This document shows, piece by piece, positions 30,943-64,000 of a DNA stretch of 64,000 nucleotides. The notes under the pieces are model-generated. The model did not search any database. It was not told the origin of the DNA and saw nothing but the letters and a program-made list of their open reading frames with translations. Positions within the stretch are counted from its first letter, which is position 1; each line of letters begins with the position of its first letter. The DNA comes from Hypomesus transpacificus (taxonomy: Eukaryota > Chordata > Actinopteri > Osmeriformes > Osmeridae). The stretch spans positions 6,530,160-6,594,159 of the forward strand of contig NC_061062.1 in the NCBI RefSeq assembly GCF_021917145.1, in the 5' to 3' direction. Both the position numbers and the translations under genes were made by a program.

Positions 30943-35302
<4,360 letters not shown>

Positions 35303-36048
35303 TCCAATGTTTTTTTTCCATGTTAAAGTAGCCTAGGGAAGGTTTTAAAAACTGGTGATAGTAAATGAAAACGGCAGTGGTGTTTGAATGTAGAAAAATG
35401 TATTGCACTCCAGTAGGCCTACGACTTTTTCTTTTCCATTGTATCATCACTTAGAGCCAGAGCGGTACAGGCAGTGGCACCTCACAGACCTGTTTGTGGG
35501 TACTGTATTACATTAAAATAATACAATGAAACATTAAATGCAATATTCTCACATCAGTTGGTTGTCCAGGCTGTGTTATTAACTGCAGTACCACTGCACC
35601 TTCACTGCATTATTAGTATGCTACATATTTAAAAACAAACATTAATTAATCATAAAGAAGTGAGTGAACTTAAGTATTCACAAAACAAAAATGACAAATT
35701 AATCAACGCAACTCTAACCGATCAAAGGTCATTAAACCCAGGGTGCTGATGTAAGGTGATGAGATTGTTAGGGTGGGGCCTTAAATAGTTCTCACCCAGA
35801 TAGGAAGTCGTCATGGTGGAGGTGAGGCGTTAGGAGTGCCCGAGAAGTGAGTCAGTAACGCACTACGTCAGTAAGAAAGTAAGTAATCTACAACGGAGTT
35901 CAAAGGACACGCGCCCTTCCCTGGAGTCCCTGGGCAGGACTCGCGTTCTTTATCAGGGAGCGGTTTCACAGGGTGAAGACCACTACGATTCCCGATCCCG
36001 AGGAGAACGCGCTATTCACCGGGAGCCGCTGCAACATCAACAGTCAAG
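35303..36048. other. nenf 3' UTR and ezrin-like gene 5' region
   Basis: Holds the nenf 3' UTR (ATTAAA-type signals near 35512-35540) and the presumed promoter and 5' UTR of the ERM gene (GC-richer from about 35800). No other exon is seen. Confidence 0.5.
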
Positions 36049-46260
<10,212 letters not shown>

Positions 46261-47397
46261 CCTGGGGACGTGGCCCCGTACTGATGTCCAGTCTGGAACG
46301 TCACGTAGACCGAAACAGACATGCGGTGTCCTGGCAGAAAGAGTTACCACTCAGAATGACCTACCTAAAAGAGGTGTGCTTGTCGATTAGGGACCAGGGA
46401 CCATCAGAACACCTGTGTGAGTGTAGCCAATGTGGATTAGCTCAACTCACTCCTCAACTATGTACACAAACCTCTCATGCCAGTCAATCGTTTTGTTGGT
46501 GTAGCTTGTAGTGGTGGCGCTTGTAGAGTTGGAGGTGCTGAGTTTGAGCCCAGGTGCGGGCAAGATTGACCGTGTGTGATTGCCGATGACTGACACGACC
46601 ACGTCTGTTGTGGGACACTAGACTGATGCAGACACAAAGTGCCTTGATTATTTGTGTTTCTTGATACAATGTGCTACATAACAAAATGATCACTCCAAAC
46701 ACACTTAAGTAAAAGCAGGGAGATTTTTGCGTAGGCTACTTTGTAACTTTCCATGTGTGCCTGGGGTAGTGTTGACTGCTATAGGCTACAACTAATCAAA
46801 GCATGGTGTTTCTACTCACAATATTAAAGATTATGAGTGAATTGAGTTGTTCAGTATTGATGTCTCTCCATCCGTGTCATGAAATGTACTATATTCTGAA
46901 TATGTCCTGTGTATGATAAATGTAGCAAGGATCTGAGAATAATAACAACAACAACCTATATTTAAATAAATCAATACCAAATATATTTCAGTGCCTCATG
47001 GGTGTCATTTCCTTCTCATTATCAAATGTCATTGAGTTTGGGTGTCATTGCAATGTCCAGCCAAGCCGCTCTCGCTGGCTCGGTTCCCATGTGTTTTGCC
47101 TGCATGTATTAGGCGTGCGCAGGAAAACGACAGAAGGAAAGTCCGTTTGACAAGTCCCTGTATTGTTGACTCCCCGTGGAGTTAGCATCTGCTGTTTTTA
47201 CTCTGCCCATAGACCTCCGTATTTGTCAATGACAAAAATAGTTTCACATGGAAGGTCAGCTCTGCCATTACGTCACTTGAAAGCCCGCCACTGACGTAGC
47301 CTACGTGCTAAGGGTAAATCCTTTTGTTGAAACAACCGATACATTATTTAATAGAAATCTAGAGCGAAACGTAGCAACGTAACAAACGTAACAATTA
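46261..47397. other. kcnk3 3' UTR and flank before the mtarc array
   Basis: Contains a candidate AATAAA at 46965-46970. A weak tRNA-like piece at about 46498-46570 (GAGTTTGAGCCC as B box) may be a SINE remnant. Nothing coding is seen. Confidence 0.5.
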
Positions 47398-47889
47398 TTT
47401 TTATTATATATTTGTATTTTCAGTACACTATTGGTTTTGTTCGGAAGTCTTCGGATCTGTGGACTACTTGAGATTTACAGAATGAGAATATGGCATTCCA
47501 GGAAAAATATTTTGCATTGACATGAAATCGCACATCGTCGCATGGCATGGCTCGAAATAGCCCTAAAAAAGCAAGCTTGCATACTGAAAAATACAACCAG
47601 ATGCAGAAGGACAGCCTGGTATTTTTTGGCATATGCCTACTGCATTTGACATACTATGGGACATACTCAATATTTTTTTCCGTACTAAATATGGATATTG
47701 AGAAGCACCAGCCACTTCTTGGTGTCCCATGTCACCAATAATCTGTTAACTCTCCACTCCAATCACTAACTCGCTGGAACAAGCCCCTTCTCAAACCCAA
47801 CCCCTTCAGGTTTGTTATTTTTTAGGTTCAAAGTTCACAAGCATTTACAGCTTGCAAATTAACAAACTGGTCGAAAGAATACTAATAAA

Positions 47890-49880
47890 ATGGACTTCAG
47901 AGAATTTAAGAATTTCCTTACAGATAAAAAAATCCTTATGCTGGCTGGAGTAGCAAGTTTAACTGCAGTTGGTTTGGGACTTGGGTATAAGTACTTACTA
48001 AAGCCAGAGAAAGTTAACCGTGTCGGAATTGTGTCACAGCTTCTCATTCACCCACTTAAATCGGGAAAAGCTGTATCCGTGGCCTTAGCAGAATGTCAAG
48101 AGATGGGCCTGAAGTTTGGAGCACTTCAAGATCGGTAAACAACACTTAATGTATTGCAAGTAATTTTTTCATAAATGACATTTCTCAAAACAGATGGGCA
48201 AGAAGATTGAGTGAAGCTAAGGTAAGAAGTTTTAAACCATACTCGTGTAAACTGGGTCGTAAAGTGTATTCGTACTTGGCTTGCATTTAAACAACTGGCT
48301 GATATACAGGCACTGGCTGGTGGTGACGGAGGATGGTCAGATGGTGACGGGCAGACAGCAGCCGCGCTTGGTCCTGGTGGCTTTGACTGTGGAAGGACAA
48401 CAGGTGTGTCTGAACGCCCCGGACATGGAGACGCTGACGTTCCCTGTCACACAGCCAGACAACGCCATCAAGGACTGCAGGTCCAAGAAAACAAAAACAT
48501 TCATACTCTTGTCCAGACATTCAGAACAATATTTGACACATTATTTCTCTCACGTTTCCAAGTCATAAACTTGAGGTCTGTGTGCGCGTGTGTGTCCCAG
48601 AGTGCTCAGTTTGGACATTCAAGGCAGAGACTGTGGTGATGAGGTCTCTAGCTGGCTCACTCGGTACCTGGCTGCAGAGAAGGTTGTTCGCATGGTGCAC
48701 TTTGAACCCCAAATGAAACCCAGGAAAACAGGAGAGAAAGAGCCTCTCTTCCCTCGACAAACAAAGGTACAACCAGGAACCTTCTCACAGCTTCAACTCT
48801 CACCCAACATTCACAAATTAGTCATTACATTTGAGATTTGTCGATGTTGCTGCCCGTTTATTGTTGCTGTTCGACAATCAACCGCTAGGCAGCGTACTCC
48901 GACGTGGGGCCGATCATGCTGTTGTCTGAGTCGTCAGTGAACGACCTCAGCAGCAGACTGGACAGCAAAGTAACGGTGGCCAGGTTCCGACCCAATATAG
49001 TCATCAGCGGATGTGAAGCATTCGATGAGGTAGGATCTCCTTCACAGATTCTTCCACACAAACACGATGTATGCGAATAATGTCACTTTTTGAAATATGT
49101 ATTTAATTGACAAATCTAGATTAAAAAAATAATAATTATTATAACCTCCAAACCTGAAAGGTTGTGTTTTCTTCTGCTTTGAATTTTGGAATCTAACTTT
49201 TCTTTTTACATTAACCACTTTTAATCTTGGCAAGGATTCCTGGGACAACATCCAGATTGGCAAAGTCCGACTGCATCGTGTTATGGCCTGTGAAAGGTAC
49301 TGTAGTATTTGTTACCCAGAATGCTCTATGACCATATGTCCTGGTTGTCTTGACCTCTCAAACTCCTTGCAGGATTTGGCCAGGGCCAAGATCAAGTGCT
49401 TCTAGCCAATAGCGTGTCTTGTTCCTATCAGGTGCATTTTCACTACTGTGGACCCAGAGACCGGAGTGATGAGCAGGAAAGAACCACTGGATACTCTTAA
49501 AAGGTATCAATGCTGTTGGGGAGCGCTGGTTTAGAGAGGCTTGTTAAGGGATCGATCTTCTGGGACTGAAAAAATGTAATTAATTTGGCAGACACTTTTT
49601 TCGAAAGATTTAAACCTGCCACCTCATGATCCGCAGTCAAATGGTTTTTCACGTATCTATTTACAAAGAAGAATATGTTGTTGGTGTCATTTTAAAGATG
49701 AATAATGTGGTAGTGGTTTGGGGACTAACTCGTCCATCAAACTTGATTTGCAGCTACCGCCAGTGCAAGCCGGACGAGAGAAGCATTTACAAAATGTCTC
49801 CTCTCTTTGGACAGATGTACACGGTCAGGAAGACTGGCGTCATGCAAGTGGGAGATGTTGTGTATAAGATCAGTCGCTGA
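47890..49880 (+). CDS. mtarc1: Mitochondrial amidoxime-reducing component, copy 1
   Basis: Molybdenum-cofactor enzyme of the outer mitochondrial membrane that reduces N-hydroxylated compounds with cytochrome b5 and its reductase. Exons 47890-48134, 48310-48480, 48601-48766, 48889-49029, 49235-49296, 49432-49503, 49754-49880; phases agree, 327 residues. A single N-terminal anchor is residues about 14-37 ([20 protein letters not shown]). The MOSC N-terminal barrel shows [20 protein letters not shown] with the cofactor-contacting Lys-Ser, [20 protein letters not shown] and GRDCG. The MOSC core shows [13 protein letters not shown] and [20 protein letters not shown] with the molybdenum-ligating cysteine, then SPLFGQMY. 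Vertebrates have MTARC1 and MTARC2; the symbol is a family-level guess. Its 5' part differs from copies 2 and 3; from 49374 onward it is identical to copy 2. Confidence 0.93.
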
Positions 49881-51802
49881 GATGGTCACCTCACTTTGGA
49901 GGTTTGATGGATGAGAACAAGGATTTGTCAGTCAACACAAGTAGTTCTTTAAGCACTTTAATTGAGTAGTAACTGAAAGGATCAACTAACATTGGAGCTT
50001 TTGGGAATGTTTTAGGGAGACGTTAGGATGAGCTAAGATTAGGAAAGTAAATAAATAATAATGAAATTGTGAAGAAATGGTGTTGTACTCATTTGTTTGG
50101 TGCTTCATTGACTGCTTGTTTGTGGCGAAAGTGTATTTTGTTGTTTTCACCCAGCTAAAAGGAGATGGGATGTTGGCCATGGTACACCATAGACTCGACA
50201 AGTAAAGAGAGGATATCGATTTTAATTCAGTGCTAGTAAACCAGACAAATAACTTTCAGTTCACTTTTCCTGGGGGGGGGGGGATTCTTCACTGTTGGAG
50301 TCTCATCTCATTGTCATGATATTATATGTAGTCTTCATGGTGTCAGACTCACTGACTCCTCTGTCTGACTAGAGGAGTCTGTCACTATGCACCTGCAGTT
50401 CCATTTCCTGTCCACCAGGGGGAAGCATAGCATTACTTGAGATTTCTCCTGTCCAATGGTTTCAGTCAGGCCATTTGAAAATGGGAAAATGTCAGCTCCT
50501 CTCTCAATAAATGTGATCTGATCTTCTTTCTGTAGCAGAATAGTGGCAGTTTTGTTCACCTTTCATCTCCCTCCCACTCAATATCCCAGTTTTGAAAATG
50601 TCTGATAAATATCATCACACCTGCTCAACACACACTGGTTTCATCACAGGTTTGTGTTTGGAAAGTTCTTAAGGGGGAGTTCACCAAGAAAAGTACTTCT
50701 AGTGTATAATTCAAACATGAAGGAAAGTGAAAATAATAGTGTGCAAGTAAACTGTTGTATAATGTCTAAGATTGTATAAATCAGATCAGCAAAGATTCTA
50801 CTGATTACAAGTTCACTTTAGTTTCTGCCAGAAGTGCTTCAGTTGCAGCAATAAAGCATATTAAAGTTGTCTCATAATAGCAATGAATCCTGCCTGGTTT
50901 TACTGTAGTATAACTGTTAATCATATTTAGACTCAGTGTAGGTGGCGGAATGGTGTTAAATTTCTCACAAAGTTGTGATAGGTCTTCGTGGTCGTCATGG
51001 GTGTCAAGCCCATGGCAACAGAACTATGTCTCTGTGTTTCATCTCCATCTGTAGCCCTGGATGCTACTGCAGGCCTGGACCTCTGAGGGGGGTTATGCTC
51101 ACATGACCACGAGCTATAGTTGGGACAACAATTACTAATACTTCCTGTTCAGAATATATTAATTCTTCTGACTACAGAACTTCCTGCAGAGTGATGAAAA
51201 CATGACTGATCTGGATATACATCATAGGAGGTTTTGAAATCATATTTGAATCTCGTTTATTTGACCATATCCAAAAAGACGTCTACATCGACATGCGCAC
51301 AAAATGTGTAGGGAACATTGTTTGTTTAATATTTTGGAGGAAACTACAAATCTGACTTCAAAAGGTGTGCAAGCCTGTCACAAAACAGACGTGTCACAGC
51401 ACGAGCCTCTGATGTCAACAGAACACTTAGGGTCGTGACTGCCCCACCACTGAGACTCTACAAACGTCTCAGAGCACAGACAGGAGTAATGACTAACCGG
51501 AGGGACGTCTGATGAGTGCCTGCAGCGGAGCAGACAGGAAGATTTCCCTACAAAGCGGGAGGATGAGTTTCAACATTTAGGGGTGGCACATTTACAGTGA
51601 GCCGCGGTTTTTGAACCTGACTTGAATCTGGTTTTAATGTATATTTTGTGTACGTTCATGTATTAACCCGTTTTCCAACGAAGGATCCAAAAAAACACAA
51701 CACTGTTGGAATGCATTTTTGAAGGACCACGTGATGCAGAGATATGCCCAGGTGTGAGAGTATGTTTCTGCCAATTTTAGTCTATAGTTCTAGTGAGTTT
51801 CT
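49881..51802. other. Downstream flank of mtarc copy 1
   Basis: 3' UTR and intergenic sequence with no supported exon. It matches 54262-56183 with no difference in the portions compared. A run of about ten G lies at 50273-50283. Confidence 0.7.
50850..50855 (+). terminator. Candidate polyA signal, mtarc copy 1
   Basis: AATAAA within GCAGCAATAAAGCATATT, about 970 nt after the stop, conserved in all three units. Earlier AATAAA sites near 50049 and 50505 are alternatives. Confidence 0.4.
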
Positions 51803-52285
51803 TTTTATTATATATTTGTTTTTTCAGTACACTGTTGGTTTGGTTCGGAAGTCTTCGAATCTGTGGACTACTTGAGATTTACAGAATGAGAACATGGCAT
51901 TCCAGGAAAAATATTTTACATTGACATGAAATCGCACATTGTCGGTATAGCATGGCATGGCTCGAAATAGCCCTAAAAAAACAAGCTTGCAAACTGAAAA
52001 ATACAACCGGATGCAGAAGGACAGCCTGGTATTTTTTGGCATATGCCTACTGCATTTGACACACTATGGGACATACTCAATATTTTTCTTCAGTACTAAA
52101 TATGGATATTGAGAAGCACCAGCCACTTGTCACCAATAATCTGTTAACTCCACTCAAATCACTAACTCGCCGGAACAAGCCCCTTCTTAAGCCCAACCCC
52201 TTCAGGGTTGTTATTTTTTAGGTTCAAAGTTCACAAGCATTTACAGCTTGCAAATTAACAATCTGGTCGAAAGAATACAAATAAA

Positions 52286-54261
52286 ATGGACTTCAGAGAA
52301 CTTAAGTATTTCCTTACAGATAAAAAAATCCTTATGCTGGCTGGAGGAGCAAGTTTAACTGCAGTTGTTTTGGGACTTGGGTATAAGTACTTACTAAAGC
52401 CAGAGAAAGTTACCCGTGTCGGAATTGTGTCACAGCTTCTCATTCACCCACTTAAATCGGGAAAAGCTGTATCCGTGGCCTTAGCAGAATGTCAAGAGAT
52501 TGGCCTGAAGTATGGAGCACTTCAAGATCGGTAAACACCACTTAGTGTATTGCAAGTATTTTTTTCATAAATGACTTTTCTCAAAACAGACGGGCAAAAA
52601 ACTGAGTGAAACTAGAAGTTTTAAACCATACTCGTGTAAATTCGGTCGTAAAGTGTATTCGTACTTGGCTTGCATTTAAACAACTGGCTGATATACAGGC
52701 ACTGGCTGGTGGTGACGGAGGATGGTCAGATGGTGACGGGCAGACAGCAGCCGCGCTTGGTCCTGGTGGCTTTGACCGTGGAAGGACAACAGGTGTGTCT
52801 GAACGCCCCGGACATGGAGACGCTGACGTTCCCTGTCACACAGCCAGACAACGCCATCAAGGACTGCAGGTCCAAGAAAACAAAAACATTCATACTCTTG
52901 TCCAGACATTCAGAACAATATTTGACACATTATTTCTCTCACGTTTCCAAGTCATAAACTTGAGGTCTGTGTGCGCGTGTGTGTCCCAGAGTGTTCAGTG
53001 TGGACATTCAAGGCAGAGACTGTGGTGAGGAGGTCTCTAGCTGGCTCACTCGGTACCTGGCTGCAGAGAAGGCTGTTCGCATGGTGCACTTTGAACCCCA
53101 AATGAACCCCAGGAAACCCGGAGAGAAAGAGCCTCTCTTCCCTCAACAAACAAAGGTACAACCAGGAACCTTCTCACAGCTTAAACTCTCACCCAACATT
53201 AACAAATTGGTCATTACATTTGAGATTTGTCGATGTTGCTGCCCGTTTATTGTTGCTGTTCGACAATCAACCTAGATTGCGTACCCCGACCTGGGGCCGA
53301 TCATGCTGTTGTCTGAGTCGTCAGTGAACGACCTCAGCAGCAGACTGGACAGCAAAGTAACGGTGGCCAGGTTCCGACCCAGTTTAGTCATCAGCGGATG
53401 TGAAGCATTCGATGAGGTAGGATCTCCTTCACAGATTCTTCCACACAAACACGATGTATGCGAATAATGTCACTTTTTGAAATATGTATTTAATTGACAA
53501 ATCTTGAATTTCGTTTTTTTTTTAAATGACCTCCAGACCTGAAAGGTTGTGTTATGTTCTGCTTTGAGATGTGGAATCTAACTTTCTTTTTACATCAACC
53601 ACTTTTTATCTTGGCAAGGATTCCTGGGACGACATCCAGATTGGCAAAGTCCGACTGCATCGTGTTATGGCCTGTGGAAGGTACTGTATTTGTTACCCAG
53701 AATGCTCTATGACCATATGTCCTGGTTATCTTGACCTCTCAAACCCCTTCCAGAATTTGGCCAGGGCCAAGATCAAGTGCTTCTAGCCAATAGCGTGTCT
53801 TGTTCCTATCAGGTGCATTTTCACTACTGTGGACCCAGAGACCGGAGTGATGAGCAGGAAAGAACCACTGGATACTCTTAAAAGGTATCAATGCTGTTGG
53901 GGAGCGCTGGTTTAGAGAGGCTTGTTAAGGGATCGATCTTCTGGGACTGAAAAAATGTAATTAATTTGGCAGACACTTTTTTCGAAAGATTTAAACCTGC
54001 CACCTCATGATCCGCAGTCAAATGGTTTTTCACGTATCTATTTACAAAGAAGAATATGTTGTTGGTGTCATTTTAAAGATGAATAATGTGGTAGTGGTTT
54101 GGGGACTAACTCGTCCATCAAACTTGATTTGCAGCTACCGCCAGTGCAAGCCGGACGAGAGAAGCATTTACAAAATGTCTCCTCTCTTTGGACAGATGTA
54201 CACGGTCAGGAAGACTGGCGTCATGCAAGTGGGAGATGTTGTGTATAAGATCAGTCGCTGA
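52286..54261 (+). CDS. mtarc1: Mitochondrial amidoxime-reducing component, copy 2 (hybrid)
   Basis: Exons 52286-52530, 52699-52869, 52990-53155, 53276-53416, 53619-53680, 53813-53884, 54135-54261; 327 residues, intact. Same fold and cofactor residues as copy 1 ([28 protein letters not shown]). Up to 53754 it agrees with copy 3 and not copy 1: MDFRELKYF for [15 protein letters not shown] for [14 protein letters not shown] for [13 protein letters not shown] for ACERC. From 53849 onward it agrees with copy 1 and not copy 3 (VMSRKEP, SIYKMSP). The interval 53755-53848 is shared by all three, so the crossover that made this gene lies around the intron 5/exon 6 border. Confidence 0.94.
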
Positions 54262-56183
54262 GATGGTCACCTCACTTTGGAGGTTTGATGGATGAGAACA
54301 AGGATTTGTCAGTCAACACAAGTAGTTCTTTAAGCACTTTAATTGAGTAGTAACTGAAAGGATCAACTAACATTGGAGCTTTTGGGAATGTTTTAGGGAG
54401 ACGTTAGGATGAGCTAAGATTAGGAAAGTAAATAAATAATAATGAAATTGTGAAGAAATGGTGTTGTACTCATTTGTTTGGTGCTTCATTGACTGCTTGT
54501 TTGTGGCGAAAGTGTATTTTGTTGTTTTCACCCAGCTAAAAGGAGATGGGATGTTGGCCATGGTACACCATAGACTCGACAAGTAAAGAGAGGATATCGA
54601 TTTTAATTCAGTGCTAGTAAACCAGACAAATAACTTTCAGTTCACTTTTCCTGGGGGGGGGGGGATTCTTCACTGTTGGAGTCTCATCTCATTGTCATGA
54701 TATTATATGTAGTCTTCATGGTGTCAGACTCACTGACTCCTCTGTCTGACTAGAGGAGTCTGTCACTATGCACCTGCAGTTCCATTTCCTGTCCACCAGG
54801 GGGAAGCATAGCATTACTTGAGATTTCTCCTGTCCAATGGTTTCAGTCAGGCCATTTGAAAATGGGAAAATGTCAGCTCCTCTCTCAATAAATGTGATCT
54901 GATCTTCTTTCTGTAGCAGAATAGTGGCAGTTTTGTTCACCTTTCATCTCCCTCCCACTCAATATCCCAGTTTTGAAAATGTCTGATAAATATCATCACA
55001 CCTGCTCAACACACACTGGTTTCATCACAGGTTTGTGTTTGGAAAGTTCTTAAGGGGGAGTTCACCAAGAAAAGTACTTCTAGTGTATAATTCAAACATG
55101 AAGGAAAGTGAAAATAATAGTGTGCAAGTAAACTGTTGTATAATGTCTAAGATTGTATAAATCAGATCAGCAAAGATTCTACTGATTACAAGTTCACTTT
55201 AGTTTCTGCCAGAAGTGCTTCAGTTGCAGCAATAAAGCATATTAAAGTTGTCTCATAATAGCAATGAATCCTGCCTGGTTTTACTGTAGTATAACTGTTA
55301 ATCATATTTAGACTCAGTGTAGGTGGCGGAATGGTGTTAAATTTCTCACAAAGTTGTGATAGGTCTTCGTGGTCGTCATGGGTGTCAAGCCCATGGCAAC
55401 AGAACTATGTCTCTGTGTTTCATCTCCATCTGTAGCCCTGGATGCTACTGCAGGCCTGGACCTCTGAGGGGGGTTATGCTCACATGACCACGAGCTATAG
55501 TTGGGACAACAATTACTAATACTTCCTGTTCAGAATATATTAATTCTTCTGACTACAGAACTTCCTGCAGAGTGATGAAAACATGACTGATCTGGATATA
55601 CATCATAGGAGGTTTTGAAATCATATTTGAATCTCGTTTATTTGACCATATCCAAAAAGACGTCTACATCGACATGCGCACAAAATGTGTAGGGAACATT
55701 GTTTGTTTAATATTTTGGAGGAAACTACAAATCTGACTTCAAAAGGTGTGCAAGCCTGTCACAAAACAGACGTGTCACAGCACGAGCCTCTGATGTCAAC
55801 AGAACACTTAGGGTCGTGACTGCCCCACCACTGAGACTCTACAAACGTCTCAGAGCACAGACAGGAGTAATGACTAACCGGAGGGACGTCTGATGAGTGC
55901 CTGCAGCGGAGCAGACAGGAAGATTTCCCTACAAAGCGGGAGGATGAGTTTCAACATTTAGGGGTGGCACATTTACAGTGAGCCGCGGTTTTTGAACCTG
56001 ACTTGAATCTGGTTTTAATGTATATTTTGTGTACGTTCATGTATTAACCCGTTTTCCAACGAAGGATCCAAAAAAACACAACACTGTTGGAATGCATTTT
56101 TGAAGGACCACGTGATGCAGAGATATGCCCAGGTGTGAGAGTATGTTTCTGCCAATTTTAGTCTATAGTTCTAGTGAGTTTCT
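54262..56183. other. Downstream flank of mtarc copy 2
   Basis: Equivalent to the flank of copy 1 and apparently identical to it. No exon. Confidence 0.7.
55231..55236 (+). terminator. Candidate polyA signal, mtarc copy 2
   Basis: Same AATAAA as in copy 1, 4,381 bp further on. Confidence 0.4.
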
Positions 56184-56666
56184 TTTTATTATATATTTGT
56201 TTTTTCAGTACACTGTTGGTTTGGTTCGGAAGTCTTCGAATCTGTGGACTACTTGAGATTTACAGAATGAGAACATGGCATTCCAGGAAAAATATTTTAC
56301 ATTGACATGAAATCGCACATTGTCGGTATAGCATGGCATGGCTCGAAATAGCCCTAAAAAAACAAGCTTGCAAACTGAAAAATACAACCGGATGCAGAAG
56401 GACAGCCTGGTATTTTTTGGCATATGCCTACTGCATTTGACACACTATGGGACATACTCAATATTTTTCTTCAGTACTAAATATGGATATTGAGAAGCAC
56501 CAGCCACTTGTCACCAATAATCTGTTAACTCCACTCAAATCACTAACTCGCCGGAACAAGCCCCTTCTTAAGCCCAACCCCTTCAGGGTTGTTATTTTTT
56601 AGGTTCAAAGTTCACAAGCATTTACAGCTTGCAAATTAACAATCTGGTCGAAAGAATACAAATAAA

Positions 56667-58642
56667 ATGGACTTCAGAGAACTTAAGTATTTCCTTACAG
56701 ATAAAAAAATCCTTATGCTGGCTGGAGGAGCAAGTTTAACTGCAGTTGTTTTGGGACTTGGGTATAAGTACTTACTAAAGCCAGAGAAAGTTACCCGTGT
56801 CGGAATTGTGTCACAGCTTCTCATTCACCCACTTAAATCGGGAAAAGCTGTATCCGTGGCCTTAGCAGAATGTCAAGAGATTGGCCTGAAGTATGGAGCA
56901 CTTCAAGATCGGTAAACACCACTTAGTGTATTGCAAGTATTTTTTTCATAAATGACTTTTCTCAAAACAGACGGGCAAAAAACTGAGTGAAACTAGAAGT
57001 TTTAAACCATACTCGTGTAAATTCGGTCGTAAAGTGTATTCGTACTTGGCTTGCATTTAAACAACTGGCTGATATACAGGCACTGGCTGGTGGTGACGGA
57101 GGATGGTCAGATGGTGACGGGCAGACAGCAGCCGCGCTTGGTCCTGGTGGCTTTGACCGTGGAAGGACAACAGGTGTGTCTGAACGCCCCGGACATGGAG
57201 ACGCTGACGTTCCCTGTCACACAGCCAGACAACGCCATCAAGGACTGCAGGTCCAAGAAAACAAAAACATTCATACTCTTGTCCAGACATTCAGAACAAT
57301 ATTTGACACATTATTTCTCTCACGTTTCCAAGTCATAAACTTGAGGTCTGTGTGCGCGTGTGTGTCCCAGAGTGTTCAGTGTGGACATTCAAGGCAGAGA
57401 CTGTGGTGAGGAGGTCTCTAGCTGGCTCACTCGGTACCTGGCTGCAGAGAAGGCTGTTCGCATGGTGCACTTTGAACCCCAAATGAACCCCAGGAAACCC
57501 GGAGAGAAAGAGCCTCTCTTCCCTCAACAAACAAAGGTACAACCAGGAACCTTCTCACAGCTTAAACTCTCACCCAACATTAACAAATTGGTCATTACAT
57601 TTGAGATTTGTCGATGTTGCTGCCCGTTTATTGTTGCTGTTCGACAATCAACCTAGATTGCGTACCCCGACCTGGGGCCGATCATGCTGTTGTCTGAGTC
57701 GTCAGTGAACGACCTCAGCAGCAGACTGGACAGCAAAGTAACGGTGGCCAGGTTCCGACCCAGTTTAGTCATCAGCGGATGTGAAGCATTCGATGAGGTA
57801 GGATCTCCTTCACAGATTCTTCCACACAAACACGATGTATGCGAATAATGTCACTTTTTGAAATATGTATTTAATTGACAAATCTTGAATTTCGTTTTTT
57901 TTTTAAATGACCTCCAGACCTGAAAGGTTGTGTTATGTTCTGCTTTGAGATGTGGAATCTAACTTTCTTTTTACATCAACCACTTTTTATCTTGGCAAGG
58001 ATTCCTGGGACGACATCCAGATTGGCAAAGTCCGACTGCATCGTGTTATGGCCTGTGGAAGGTACTGTATTTGTTACCCAGAATGCTCTATGACCATATG
58101 TCCTGGTTATCTTGACCTCTCAAACCCCTTCCAGAATTTGGCCAGGGCCAAGATCAAGTGCTTCTAGCCAATAGCGTGTCTTGTTCCTATCAGGTGCATT
58201 TTCACTACTGTGGACCCAGAGACCGGAGTAATAAGCAGGAAGGAACCTCTGGATACTCTTAAAAGGTAACAGTGCTGTTGGGGAGCGCTGGTTTAGAGAG
58301 GCCTGTTAAGGGATCGATCTTCTGGGACTGAAAAAATGTAATTAATTTGGCAGACACTTTTTTCGAAATATTTAAACCTGCCACCTCATGATCCGCAGTC
58401 AAATGGTTTTTCACGTATCTATTTACAAAGAAGAATATGTTGTTGGTGTCATTTTAAAGATGAATAATGTGGTAGTGGTTTGGGGACTAACTCGTCCATC
58501 AAACTTGATTTGCAGCTACCGCCAGTGCAAGCCGGACGAGAGAAGCATTTACAAAACGTCTCCTCTCTTTGGACAGATGTACACGGTCAGGAAGACTGGC
58601 GTCATGCAAGTGGGAGATGTTGTGTATAAGATCAGTCGCTGA
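56667..58642 (+). CDS. mtarc1: Mitochondrial amidoxime-reducing component, copy 3
   Basis: Exons 56667-56911, 57080-57250, 57371-57536, 57657-57797, 58000-58061, 58194-58265, 58516-58642; 327 residues, intact. The first five exons and introns are indistinguishable from copy 2. Exons 6 and 7 carry their own differences (VISRKEP for VMSRKEP, SIYKTSP for SIYKMSP), and the downstream flank has many. Cofactor residues HPLKSGKA and the cysteine in [10 protein letters not shown] are kept. With copy 1 it represents the older duplicate pair. Confidence 0.93.
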
Positions 58643-60528
58643 GATGGTCACCTCACTTTGGAGGTTTGATGGATGAGAACAAGGATTTGTCAGTCAACAC
58701 AAGTAGTTCTTTAAGCACTTTAATTGAGTAGTAACTGAAAGGATCAACTAACATTGGAGCTTTTGGGAATGTTTTAGGGAGACGTTAGGATGAGCTAACA
58801 TTAGGAAAGTAAATAAATAATAATGAAATTGTGAAGAAATGGTGTTGTACTCATGTGTTTGGTGCTTCATTGACTGCTTGTTTGTGGCGAAAGTGTATTT
58901 TGTTGTTTTCACCCAGCTAAAAAGAGATGGGATGTTGGCCATGGTACACCATAGACGACAGGTAAAGAGAGGATATCGATTTTAATTCAGTGCTAGTAAA
59001 CCAGACAAATAACTTTCAGTTCACTTTTCCTGGGGGGGGGGGGGTTCTTCACTGTTGGAGTCTCATCTCATTGTCATGATATTATATGTAGTCTTCATGG
59101 TGTCAGACTCACTGACTCCTCTGTCTGACTAGAGGAGTCTGTCACTATGCACCTGCAGTTCCATTTCCTGTCCACCAGGGAGAAGCATAGCATTACTTGA
59201 GATTTCTCCTGTCCAATGGTTTCAGTCAGGCCATTTGAAAATGGGAAAATGTCAGCCCCTCTCTCAATAAATGTGATTTGATCTTCTTTCTGTAGCAGAA
59301 TAGTGGCAGTTTTGTTCACCTTTCATCTCCCTCCCACTCAATATCCCTGTTTTGAAAATGTCTGATAAATATCATCACACCTGCTCAACACACACTGGTT
59401 TCATCACAGGATCGTGTTTGGAAAGTTCTTACGGGGGAGTTCACCAAGAAAACTACTTCTAGTGTATAATTCAAACATGAAGGAAAGTGAAAATAATAGT
59501 GTGCAAGTAAACTGTTGTATAATGTCTAAGATTGTATAAATCAGATCAGCAAAGATTCTACTGATAACAAGTTCACTTTAGTTTCTGCCAGAAGTGCTTC
59601 AGTTGCAGCAATAAAGCATATTAAAGTTGTCTCATAATAGCAATGAATCCTGCCTGGTTTTACTGTAGTATAACTGTTAATCATATTTAGACTCAGTGTA
59701 GGTGGCGGAATCGTGTTAAATTTCTCACAAAGTTGTGATAGGTCTTCGTGGTCGTCATGGGTGTCAAGCCCATGGCAACAGAACTATGTCTCCATGTTTC
59801 ATCTCCATCTGTAGCCCTGGATTCTACTGCAGGCCTGGACCTCTGAGGGGGGTTATGCTCACATGATCACGAGCTACAGTTGGGACAACATTCAGAATAT
59901 ATTAATTCTTCTGACTACAGAACTCCCGCAGAGTGATGAAAACATGACTGATCTGGATATACATCATAGGAGGTGCTGAAATCATATGTGAATCTTGTTT
60001 ATTTGAGCATACCCAGAAAGAGGTCGACTTCAAAATGCGCACAAAATGTGTAGGGAACATTGTTTGTTTAATATTTTTGGGGAGACTACAAATCTGATTT
60101 CAAAAGGTGTACAAGCCTGTCACAAAACAGACGTGTCACAGCACGAGCCTCTGATGTCAACAGAGCACTTGGGGTCGTGACTGCCCCACCACTGAGACTC
60201 TACAAACGTCTCAGAGCACAGACAGGAGTAATGACTAACCGGAGGGACGTCTGATGAGTGCCTGCAGCAGAGCAGACAGGAAGATTTCCCTACAAAGCGG
60301 GAGGATGAGTTTCAACATTTAGGGGTGGCACATTTACAGTGAGCCGCGGTTTTTGAACCTGACTTGAATCTGGTTTTAATGTATATTTTGTGTACGTTCA
60401 TGTATTAACCTGTTTTCCAACGAAGGATCCAAAAAACCACAACACTGTTGGAATGCATTTTTGAAGGTCCACGTGATGCAGAGATATGCCCAGGTGAGCG
60501 GGTATGTATTTCTGGCGACTCTAGTCTG
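58643..60528. other. Downstream flank of mtarc copy 3 (diverged)
   Basis: Aligns with the flanks of copies 1 and 2 but carries scattered substitutions and a few small indels, for example a missing block at about 59890 and a changed segment near 58957. No exon. Confidence 0.7.
59610..59615 (+). terminator. Candidate polyA signal, mtarc copy 3
   Basis: AATAAA in the same conserved context as in copies 1 and 2. Confidence 0.4.
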
Positions 60529-61125
60529 GAAAGCGCTGGAGGTTGCTCTTAGACAGTAGATTCGATGCATAACACGTAACAAGTCCCTACCTGGGGCTAC
60601 CAAGTCCACTGATCTTTTCTACAGGTTGGCACGATGTAAAAGCTCAGATCATTCAACAAGTTGACCCATTGGTGTCCGAAGGCTCTGGGATGAACTGAAA
60701 AACACTTTTCTGAAATCAAACAATTGACAAAACAGCAGATCCTTGTGTCTACTGAACCTTCACTATTTAAGTCACAGTCTGTGGTTTCAATCATGATCAG
60801 TGGAGTCAAATGACAGAGGGCTTCGCAGAGACACACAGCTCGTTTACGATCCCCAGAGGTTTATTTTTTAACGTATGCATGTGCTGTAAAATTAGTGCAA
60901 TTTTACGACACCACAATGTCGGTTTTTATGTTCGCCGACTTTGCCCAGTTCTGTCTTTGATTTAACTCTAAAGACGTAACAAAAATGATCAGCTTGAAAT
61001 ACTGACTTCACTGCAGTTCAAAGTGACAGGACTACACAAACAAATTCACCATACCAGTGTATTCTATTTCTCAGAAACAAGATACTGAATTAATTATCAA
61101 CAGCCACACAAGGAACAATATCGTC
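60529..61125. other. Flank between the mtarc array and the lysine-rich gene
   Basis: Unique sequence; the right part is probably the 3' UTR of the minus-strand gene. Nothing else supported. Confidence 0.5.
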
Positions 61126-62520
61126 TCATTGGACTTGTTTGCTTTTGACAGTTTTCTTTTTTTGCGCTGTTTTCCTTGTGTCCGACACTGGTTTGCTTCC
61201 CTTAGCCTTGGCTCCTTTGGAAGGTGTTTTGTTCTTCTGGCCGTTCCTGACTAGTTCATGTTTAAATGGCTTCAGCAGCACTGCCTTAAAAGATCCTGTC
61301 TTCTTTGTCTGTGCTTTAACATTCTGCTTGTTTTGATTTTTCAGAGGCATCTTAGTCTTTGATTGCGTTTTGACTGTCTGCTTGAGATTCTTCAGTGGGT
61401 CCTTCCTCTTTGATTGCATTTTGACAGCCTGTTGGTCCATTTTCAGATGGGTCTCACTATTTGCCTGTGCTGTGGCTACCTGCTTGTTCAGGGTTTTTAA
61501 TGGAGCCTTTTTCCTCAACTGTAGTTGGGCTGTTTGCTTGTCGAGGACAGTGAAAGGCATCTTCTTTTTGCTTTGTGCTTCTGCTGTCTGATTTTTGAGA
61601 GATTTATTCTCCATCTGTTGTTTGGCTTTGAGTTTTTTACCTTTGGTGTTTGTCGTGGTCAAATTCTTATTGTTTGCTCTCCATTCGGGTGCCGGTGTGG
61701 GGGTGGGGACCCTGGGGCTAAGACTGGCAGAGGGAGGGCTGGTCTGGGGGGTGGCAGGAGGCTTGCTAGTAAATATGAATTTCCGAAGTGGCGGTCTGGT
61801 GGGTTTTTCATGTATGTCCAGCACTGTTACTGAAGTCAAACAAGCATACGTGTTAGCAAGCACTTTCAACATTTAGCCTGCCTCCTTTACATTAACCCTA
61901 AAAAGCTAAAATAAGTTTATATGTTGTGATCCAAATGTTTGGCCTTGAATGAAGGACATGCATGTTTGGAATTCTCTTAGTTTTGACACTATGTATAGGT
62001 TATGTTTGATGTAAAATAGGCTGTTGCCTTGGATAGTTTTATAAGTTCTCTTTTGGAAGTCGCTTTGGATAAAAGGGTCTGCATAAATGTACATTTAAAA
62101 TGTAAATGTAAGTTGAGTCCCTTTATAAAGTTTGGCAGCATGTCATTGCCAAATGAAATGAGTATAAATAGAAAACAGTAAACCATGAATCAGTTGGCTT
62201 CCCTCATTGCTCCTAACATGCAGTCAATTAGGATGAATCCTGAGCAGCACCCTGGGCATGACTTAAAGGGAGCTGGAGTTTTAGTGGGTCCTCAAAGTGA
62301 AGGAGGACTATGTGTCAACAATACAAACACTGCCCCCAATAAACTGGTTACACCACAAGCTACAGGCATCGTTTAATCACTTGATGCATTTAAACACAAC
62401 ACATAATAACACAACCCATTGTGAAGTTGTAACTTACATTCTCTTGGTGTGAAAGGCAGCTTCTTGCTCCTGACCTTCACAGGAGCTTGTTTGATTCTGC
62501 ACTTCCCTGGAGGGGCTCTC
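61126..62520 (-). CDS. Unrecognised lysine-rich repeat protein, 3' end
   Basis: Two linked minus-strand exons, 62520-62438 and 61829-61126, joined in phase with good GT-AG borders (GAGAAT|GTAAGT and CTTCAG|TAACAG). They read APPGKCRIKQAPVKV, then SKKLPFTPRELTVLDIHEKP, a Ser/Pro-rich linker (PPATPQTSPPSASLSPRVPT) and a long Lys/Gln-rich tail ending KTVKSKQVQ. The tail consists of about six degenerate repeats of 17-18 residues with the pattern hydrophobic-xx-Q-xKxK-x-P-L-K-x-hydrophobic-x-K-Q, e.g. QSKTKMPLKNQNKQ and QLRKKAPLKTLNKQ. Strongly basic and low in aromatic residues, as in nucleolar or chromatin-binding proteins, but I do not recognise the family. The 5' exons were not found and may lie beyond 64000. 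Confidence 0.65.
61290..61680 (-). repeat. Degenerate 17-18-residue coding repeats
   Basis: Six basic repeats in the C-terminal exon, with conserved positions Gln, Lys-Lys/Arg, Pro-Leu/Phe, Lys and a closing Lys-Gln. Divergent in DNA, so this is an old protein repeat and not a recent minisatellite. Confidence 0.7.
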
Positions 62521-64000
62521 CTGTGGGGGCAGTAGGGTGGGGAAGCAACAGACAACCAGGTCACATTCAGTAATACAAGACTGCGGTTAAGTGAAAATAA
62601 AATAACACAATGAATCCCAAAAATAAGTTTACAACAGTAAGTATCCATCAGTAAGTCAAGGTTTAGTCAGTTGCACTTTCTGCCAGCTGAGTGGTGATGG
62701 TGAAACCTTCAACAGATTAAGACTTTAGCATCTGCTTATTAAATAAATTACATAATATCATGAACAGTACAGGTTGTTGGCTGCAATTAGTATCTAGTGC
62801 TATATCCACACCTAAAGCCATGTGCAGTAGAATACAGTATATTCTATTCAGTCTATTCATAGTTTTATATATTCAGAATATCTATCTGGAGTATACATTC
62901 AGAGTATATATTCAAAGTAGTATATATTCAGAGTATTATATATTCAGAGTATCTATTAATACATGTTCAGAATATCTATTCAGAATATTATTTGTTAGAG
63001 TATCTATTCAGAATGTTATAGCAGAGAAGTAGAAAGTAGTACTTATTCAGAGTATTATCTATTCACAGTGTTATATGTACTAGATAGAATAGAATAAACT
63101 GGTTATATATTCAGCGTAGTATACTCAGAGTGTACATTCATGTGTGTGCAGCTGTGGCCAGTATGCCACTCCAGATGGTCTTTATAAGGTTTCTCCTCTT
63201 CTAGAGTTGCTTAGAAGAGGAGGGGGGCTCAGCTCTGGGACGTTCTGGGACGACCAGGTGAGCCCTGTCTGTCAGTGTTTCAGGGTAAGAGGACGACATC
63301 ACCAAGGTCAAACTGTAAGAGTTCATTAGCGAGGAGAAACAAAAACACCTTGCACGGGTGTTTCTCAGATCTGAAGTCAAGTTCTTATGGGTGTTTTCTA
63401 CTCATACCTTTAGTTTATACCTACTAATACCTAATGGTTTACGCTGGGAACTCCCACATTGTGTGAAAAATGACAACAACAGACTAAATAACAACTTTCT
63501 TTCAATATGCTCAACTTGAACTAAATGGTCAATCCTAATCCTGGGGTTATCCACCCTGCATCCCTTCAAAGTACAGTAGTTAAAATCCCACATGCCTTGG
63601 AATTGGCAACGATTCCAAAAGGGACGGAAAGAATGTCGAACATCTGATAGCTTCTAATGATTCCATCAGTCCAGGAGTATGTGAACCTACCGTGTCAACT
63701 GGCGTGAAGTCATTTCTGACACGTGTGCAGATATTGAGTTACACGAGAGGCATCTTTTCTTTCTATCATCCATCAAGACAGATTCCAACAGCAGCTATGA
63801 ACAGAGATCAATACGCAGGTTTGATCAGCTGAAGGACATTAAACGGTTTCAGAGCATCTTTGAATCATATCTCAACAATCCATCCCACATCCACATAATC
63901 CACATAACTACTGTCACCTAAGAACTAGTCATCATCATGAGGATTCGGTTCTACCCATGTGATCTTAAAAGACTGAGAAAATATCAAAAGAGCTGAAGAA
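62521..64000. other. Right end without a supported gene
   Basis: 62860-63110 is AT-rich with repeated TATTCAGAGTATATATTCA-like words. A possible + strand exon at 63205-63257 is listed under rejected items. Otherwise nothing is seen. Confidence 0.5.
62860..63110. repeat. AT-rich degenerate tandem repeat
   Basis: About twelve loosely spaced copies of TATTCAGAGTAT and variants. Confidence 0.75.

Follow-up and report, generated by a model that had tools for sequence, protein, structure and literature searches.

What kind of event placed a third mtarc gene between two others, and did it happen in the fish or in the assembly of its genome? The question arises at an array of three tandem head-to-tail units, each of ~4.38 kb, which self-BLAST and alignment delimit at 47395-60527 of the window (the whole 64,000-nucleotide stretch of Hypomesus transpacificus DNA that was analysed). 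The outer units represent two types, designated X and Y, and the middle unit is Y-like at its left and X-like at its right. The best explanation for the resulting order of X, Y/X hybrid and Y is a single unequal exchange within an older pair of X and Y, a reading that we consider probable. The units, their coding exons and the sequence that joins them are as follows.

47395-51783, + strand: unit 1, type X throughout, carrying mtarc copy 1 (self-BLAST, alignment)
47890-48134, 48310-48480, 48601-48766, 48889-49029, 49235-49296, 49432-49503 and 49754-49880, + strand: coding exons of copy 1 (exon model)
51799-56164, + strand: unit 2, a hybrid with a Y-type left part and an X-type right part, carrying mtarc copy 2 (difference events, exon model)
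52286-52530, 52699-52869, 52990-53155, 53276-53416, 53619-53680, 53813-53884 and 54135-54261, + strand: coding exons of copy 2 (exon model)
56180-60527, + strand: unit 3, type Y throughout, carrying mtarc copy 3 (self-BLAST, alignment)
56667-56911, 57080-57250, 57371-57536, 57657-57797, 58000-58061, 58194-58265 and 58516-58642, + strand: coding exons of copy 3 (exon model)
51784-51798 and again 56165-56179, + strand: 15-base filler at the X/Y junction (alignment, junction sequences)

All three copies are intact as genes, as an earlier note on this DNA had claimed. Each is modelled on the + strand with seven exons and six introns, all of the GT-AG class, and each has an open frame of 984 nt including the stop (327 residues). 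The interval 52286-54261 is the exact coding span of copy 2, and with its exons, splice sites and frame all intact, pseudogene status of the middle copy is ruled out. The copy 1 protein matches the human mARC1 chain 6fw2_A in two stretches (query residues 42-120 and 124-325; E 2.2e-95). The Pfam MOSC family is matched only once, in exon 4 of copy 1 (score 30.3 bits, cut-off 22.7), because introns split the domain; the copy count rests instead on genome-wide DNA and protein searches. Residues ~13-37, hydrophobic by eye in the translation, are a candidate N-terminal outer-membrane anchor helix. A cysteine, Cys263, is present in all three copies within the stretch aligned to the human mARC1 motif MACSRCILTT, and this alignment makes it the putative molybdenum-ligand cysteine. 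By a residue count based on the length of human mARC1, we take Cys263 to be the probable equivalent of human C273. C273 is named as the molybdenum-coordinating residue of human mARC1 (PMC10637980); mARC enzymes act reductively on N-oxygenated compounds, and the human form is linked to liver fat (PMC10637980).

A reading frame at 45454-46260, upstream of the array on the + strand, encodes a K2P potassium channel closest to KCNK3/KCNK9; from its end it is ~1.1 kb to the array and 1.6 kb to the start codon of the first mtarc gene. The channel is itself preceded by exons of a FERM/ERM-type protein (Pfam, two of six frames, 36001-47400). A Pfam scan of 10 of the 24 listed flank ORFs returned one sub-threshold match, and no Pfam family was found in the six frames of 60528-64000. 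Elsewhere in the window, a 615-bp inverted pair that is 99.2% identical (31409-32023 and 34233-34847) encloses a second inverted pair (32013-32493 and 32866-33346), and the nested arrangement at 31409-34847 looks like a young palindrome or a mobile element. A tandem array with a 31-bp period occupies 42178-42536, where shifted copies are identical over 328 bp.

The case for a hybrid rests on a three-way alignment, the base-by-base comparison of diagnostic sites that the earlier note had proposed. Copies 1 and 3 are separated by 162 difference events, comprising 146 substitutions and 16 indels; two of the indels are the 15-base junction filler, at the edges of the units. As far as 53754, copy 2 has the copy 3 state at all of the first 97 events (97/97), and from 53849 onward it has the copy 1 state at all of the remaining 65 (65/65); with the edge events excluded, the counts are 96/96 and 64/64. 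It has no private differences, and a single switch of this kind has a chance of about 10^-46 under label shuffling. The clean split between 53754 and 53849 that the earlier note described is thus exact to the base. The events do not alternate anywhere along the 162, by which patchy gene conversion along copy 2 is ruled out. Between the two blocks lies a switch interval that is identical in all copies, and around it an exact direct repeat extends in both directions.

53755-53848, + strand: switch interval in copy 2, identical in three copies (49374-49467 in copy 1, 58136-58229 in copy 3), with the end of intron 5, the exon 6 acceptor and the cysteine codon
49374-53848, + strand: first member of the exact 4,475-bp repeat, made of the X right part and the Y left part, an exact match to 53755-58229
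53755-58229, + strand: second member of the exact 4,475-bp repeat, with a period of 4,381

The interval had been put at about 95 bp; all three coordinate pairs given for it are exact, and its length is 94 bp. Exon 6 of copy 2 begins at 53813 and the Cys263 codon occupies 53814-53816, so that both the acceptor and the cysteine codon fall inside the interval, in agreement with its earlier placement across the exon 6 acceptor beside the molybdenum-ligating cysteine. The flanking bases are G..G in copy 1, A..A in copy 3 and A..G in the hybrid, which has the Y-type A at 53754 and the X-type G at 53849, 95 bp apart; each flank-to-flank 96-mer is unique in the 64-kb window. The coding markers on either side, in exons 5 and 6, tell the same story: codons 261 and 274-275 read GAA and GTGATG in copy 1, GGA and GTAATA in copy 3, and GGA and GTGATG in the hybrid, with codons 261 and 274 separated by 40 nt.

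An identical two-block outcome would also follow from gene conversion in an older three-copy array, in which the left half of copy 2 came from or went to copy 3 and the right half from or to copy 1. This history would need two long tracts, of ~2.0 and 2.3 kb, to abut in one 94-bp interval, and both would have to be too recent for any change to have accumulated, with no patch among the 162 events. We consider it very improbable. The earlier attribution to one unequal exchange is partly supported, inasmuch as the X, Y/X, Y order, the one clean switch and the lack of patchiness all agree with it. Under that explanation, an older tandem duplication would have produced a two-gene mtarc array, X followed by Y, with the 15-base filler between them. 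Mispairing of Y on one chromatid with X on another would then have been followed, within the 94 bp common to X and Y, by a crossover or by a homology-guided template switch of equivalent outcome. The product would be X, a Y/X hybrid and Y, with one whole 4,381-bp unit added in register, and for this reason the new gene would retain seven exons, the 5' flank of Y and the 3' end of X. The filler occurs at both inner unit junctions and has no counterpart at the outer edges of the array (47395, 60527), and it is therefore assigned to the older X/Y duplication, from which it probably dates; its presence at the X/Y junction suggests that this duplication arose by end joining or template switching.

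The two events differ widely in apparent age. Between X and Y, 116 of 3,355 noncoding sites are different (3.46%); at 5.97e-9 mutations per site per generation, the mean rate for fish (PMC9995274), this places their duplication ~3 million generations ago. The 4,381 bp added by the second event contain no difference, for a 95% upper bound of ~57,000 generations (45,000-78,000 over the confidence limits of the rate), and both ages assume the mean fish rate and a clock. The earlier suggestion of a recent change is borne out only in the form of this upper bound. We infer a germ-line origin for the exchange, with sister chromatids or near-identical haplotypes as partners, a very young age and expression of the hybrid.

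The same perfect identity, which includes runs of G12 and T10, is also what would be seen if the animal carried only X and Y and 4,381 bp had been counted twice, either because the assembler went twice round the X-right/Y-left loop or because two overlapping pieces were joined within the array. False duplications are common in some assemblies, and in three newer VGP assemblies those that remain lie mostly on the same scaffold (22.2 of 24.1, 4.8 of 5.8 and 3.4 of 5.6 Mb; PMC9516828). Several observations weigh against such an artefact here. Gaps between same-scaffold pairs mark false duplications (PMC9516828), whereas the array and its surroundings, 264 kb in all, contain no N. The main source of false duplication is reported to be heterotype, with allelic differences, and read errors are a minor source, the exception being an older hummingbird assembly, one of six tabulated, with more homotype duplication (PMC9516828). 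Duplication by heterotype or by read errors would usually be visible as differences, unless these had been removed by polishing. By length, the 94-bp tract ranks just 11th among the identical X-Y stretches, the longest being 241, 216 and 187 bp, so there is no particular reason why a repeat-tangle artefact should have settled on it. The 4,475-bp repeat is the sole exact direct repeat of at least 1 kb in the 264 kb, a small sample of the 437-Mb assembly; the next longest is 337 bp, so that no other reaches 340 bp, and the other exact direct repeats of at least 200 bp outside the array all lie within short-period tandem arrays. Finally, among the best-scoring candidates of DNA and protein searches of the 437-Mb assembly, there is no further mtarc copy or leftover haplotype: the DNA search gave three matches, and 21 of 22 protein matches fall in the array, the other being weak (C11, E 0.06). 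On this evidence an assembly artefact is a serious though less likely rival, and the hybrid is most likely real and very young.

Perfect identity also bears on the exchange itself. If two homologues had recombined, the probability of no difference over 4,381 bp would be 0.11 at an assumed diversity of 0.05% and 0.0002 at an assumed 0.2%. Recombining homologues of ordinary diversity would be expected to leave differences, and this counts against the exchange reading. The length of the shared tract is a further consideration, since 300-500 bp is quoted for efficient human meiotic non-allelic homologous recombination (NAHR) and the 94 bp here fall below that range; in cell culture, a reduction of uninterrupted homology from 232 to 134 bp lowered recombination 20-fold (PMC2583991). 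A replication-based route to the tandem duplication, with template switching or break-induced replication directed by the 94 bp of homology, would give a product of identical sequence; the shortness of the homology and the lack of any allelic difference fit an event of this sort between sister chromatids. No sequence feature favours this route over crossover, and we regard it as improbable when taken as the specific route; its share of the probability is already contained in that given above to the exchange, which covers crossover and the replication-based variant together. Judged from the sequence of the product, crossover and homology-guided replication switching are indistinguishable.

If the unequal exchange did occur, its predicted effect on the protein is small: two residues (275 and 300) separate the hybrid from copy 3, and 21 separate it from copy 1. 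Upstream of the hybrid gene, 487 bp of Y flank reach the unit edge, beyond which come the filler and the last part of unit 1; the 3' end is that of X. Self-BLAST indicates that the sequence left of 47395, upstream of copy 1, is not common to copies 2 and 3; since they lack it, the promoters of copies 2 and 3 may differ from that of copy 1 beyond ~490 bp, and these two copies may be without part of the copy 1 promoter. In the unduplicated region at 47000-47394 there are 3 to 6 CpG per 100 bp, against 0 to 1 in the preceding 400 bp, together with several ACGT motifs. A higher mtarc dosage is possible, as the earlier note suggested together with a change in isoform diversity. Should the hybrid be real, it would be a very clean, freshly formed exchange product in a drug- and lipid-relevant enzyme, all of the mtarc genes that were found being in the array; should it be an artefact, the mtarc gene count of three may be two. 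The junction is exact to the base and its flanking markers lie 95 bp apart, which makes it typable with ordinary short reads.

The divergence between the older X and Y copies is unevenly distributed along the gene. In exons 1-5 (47890-49296 versus 56667-58061), 21 of 22 differing codons are nonsynonymous against a neutral expectation of 73% (P 0.009, uncorrected and from a post hoc split between exons 1-5 and 6-7), and NG86 estimates for copies 1 and 3 give a dN (0.037) about twice dS (0.017). Exons 6-7 look constrained, with two of five differing codons nonsynonymous, dN 0.013 and dS 0.075. The excess falls short of significance when the whole gene is counted, whether by codons (23/27, P 0.12) or by single changes (24/30, P = 0.18). 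Diversifying selection on exons 1-5 of the older pair is therefore possible. Substitution rates do not differ between coding (30/984) and noncoding (116/3355) positions (P 0.62), and the absence of stop codons is uninformative alone (P 0.31). The indels, 14 in number when 15 columns at each edge are excluded, all lie outside coding exons; at the noncoding rate 4.1 coding indels would be expected and none is observed (P(0) 0.016), which suggests that the frames are being maintained. At 19 aligned X/Y differences compared by eye, the human mARC1 residue is matched by copy 1 at six, by copy 3 at three and by neither at 10; with the matches divided between them, neither copy is simply ancestral. 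A bolder reading is that the array is a live, selected copy-number system, in which exons 1-5 of X and Y have been driven apart through positive selection and unequal exchange around exons 5-6 couples this variable part with the conserved catalytic end of the other type, such that two-copy, three-copy and reciprocal one-copy alleles segregate. We regard this as a long shot.

Among the matches listed by a literature search on fish mtarc duplication, no title concerned tandem mtarc copies, which is not proof of absence. Mammalian MTARC1 and MTARC2 belong to the same enzyme family as the array, with two paralogues per mammalian genome, and zebrafish is described as having one mARC (PMC10637980). 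The human pair is ~66% identical (PMC10637980), whereas copies 1 and 3 differ at only 30 of 984 coding positions; the array is far less diverged and thus much younger. With respect to mechanism, the human alpha-globin genes are likewise close tandem genes with short matching stretches, and NAHR between them used matches of less than 50 bp (PMC2583991). Those events were detected as new by single sperm/cell assay (PMC2583991), whereas the mtarc exchange is deduced from one sequence. A further parallel is found in the MYH3C cluster of threespine stickleback, where the middle copies likewise resemble the last copy in their 5' part and the first copy in their 3' part; they are read as NAHR products of an older duplication, which is itself attributed to microhomology-mediated repair (PMC12776057, preprint). 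The two systems differ in that MYH3C is a muscle myosin with a ~17.6-kb unit, for which both read depth and assemblies show the copy number in several populations (PMC12776057), whereas mtarc encodes a molybdoenzyme in a 4.38-kb unit known from one assembly. Given the matching pattern in the stickleback MYH3C arrays, the mtarc hybrid would be a fresh case of a known kind.
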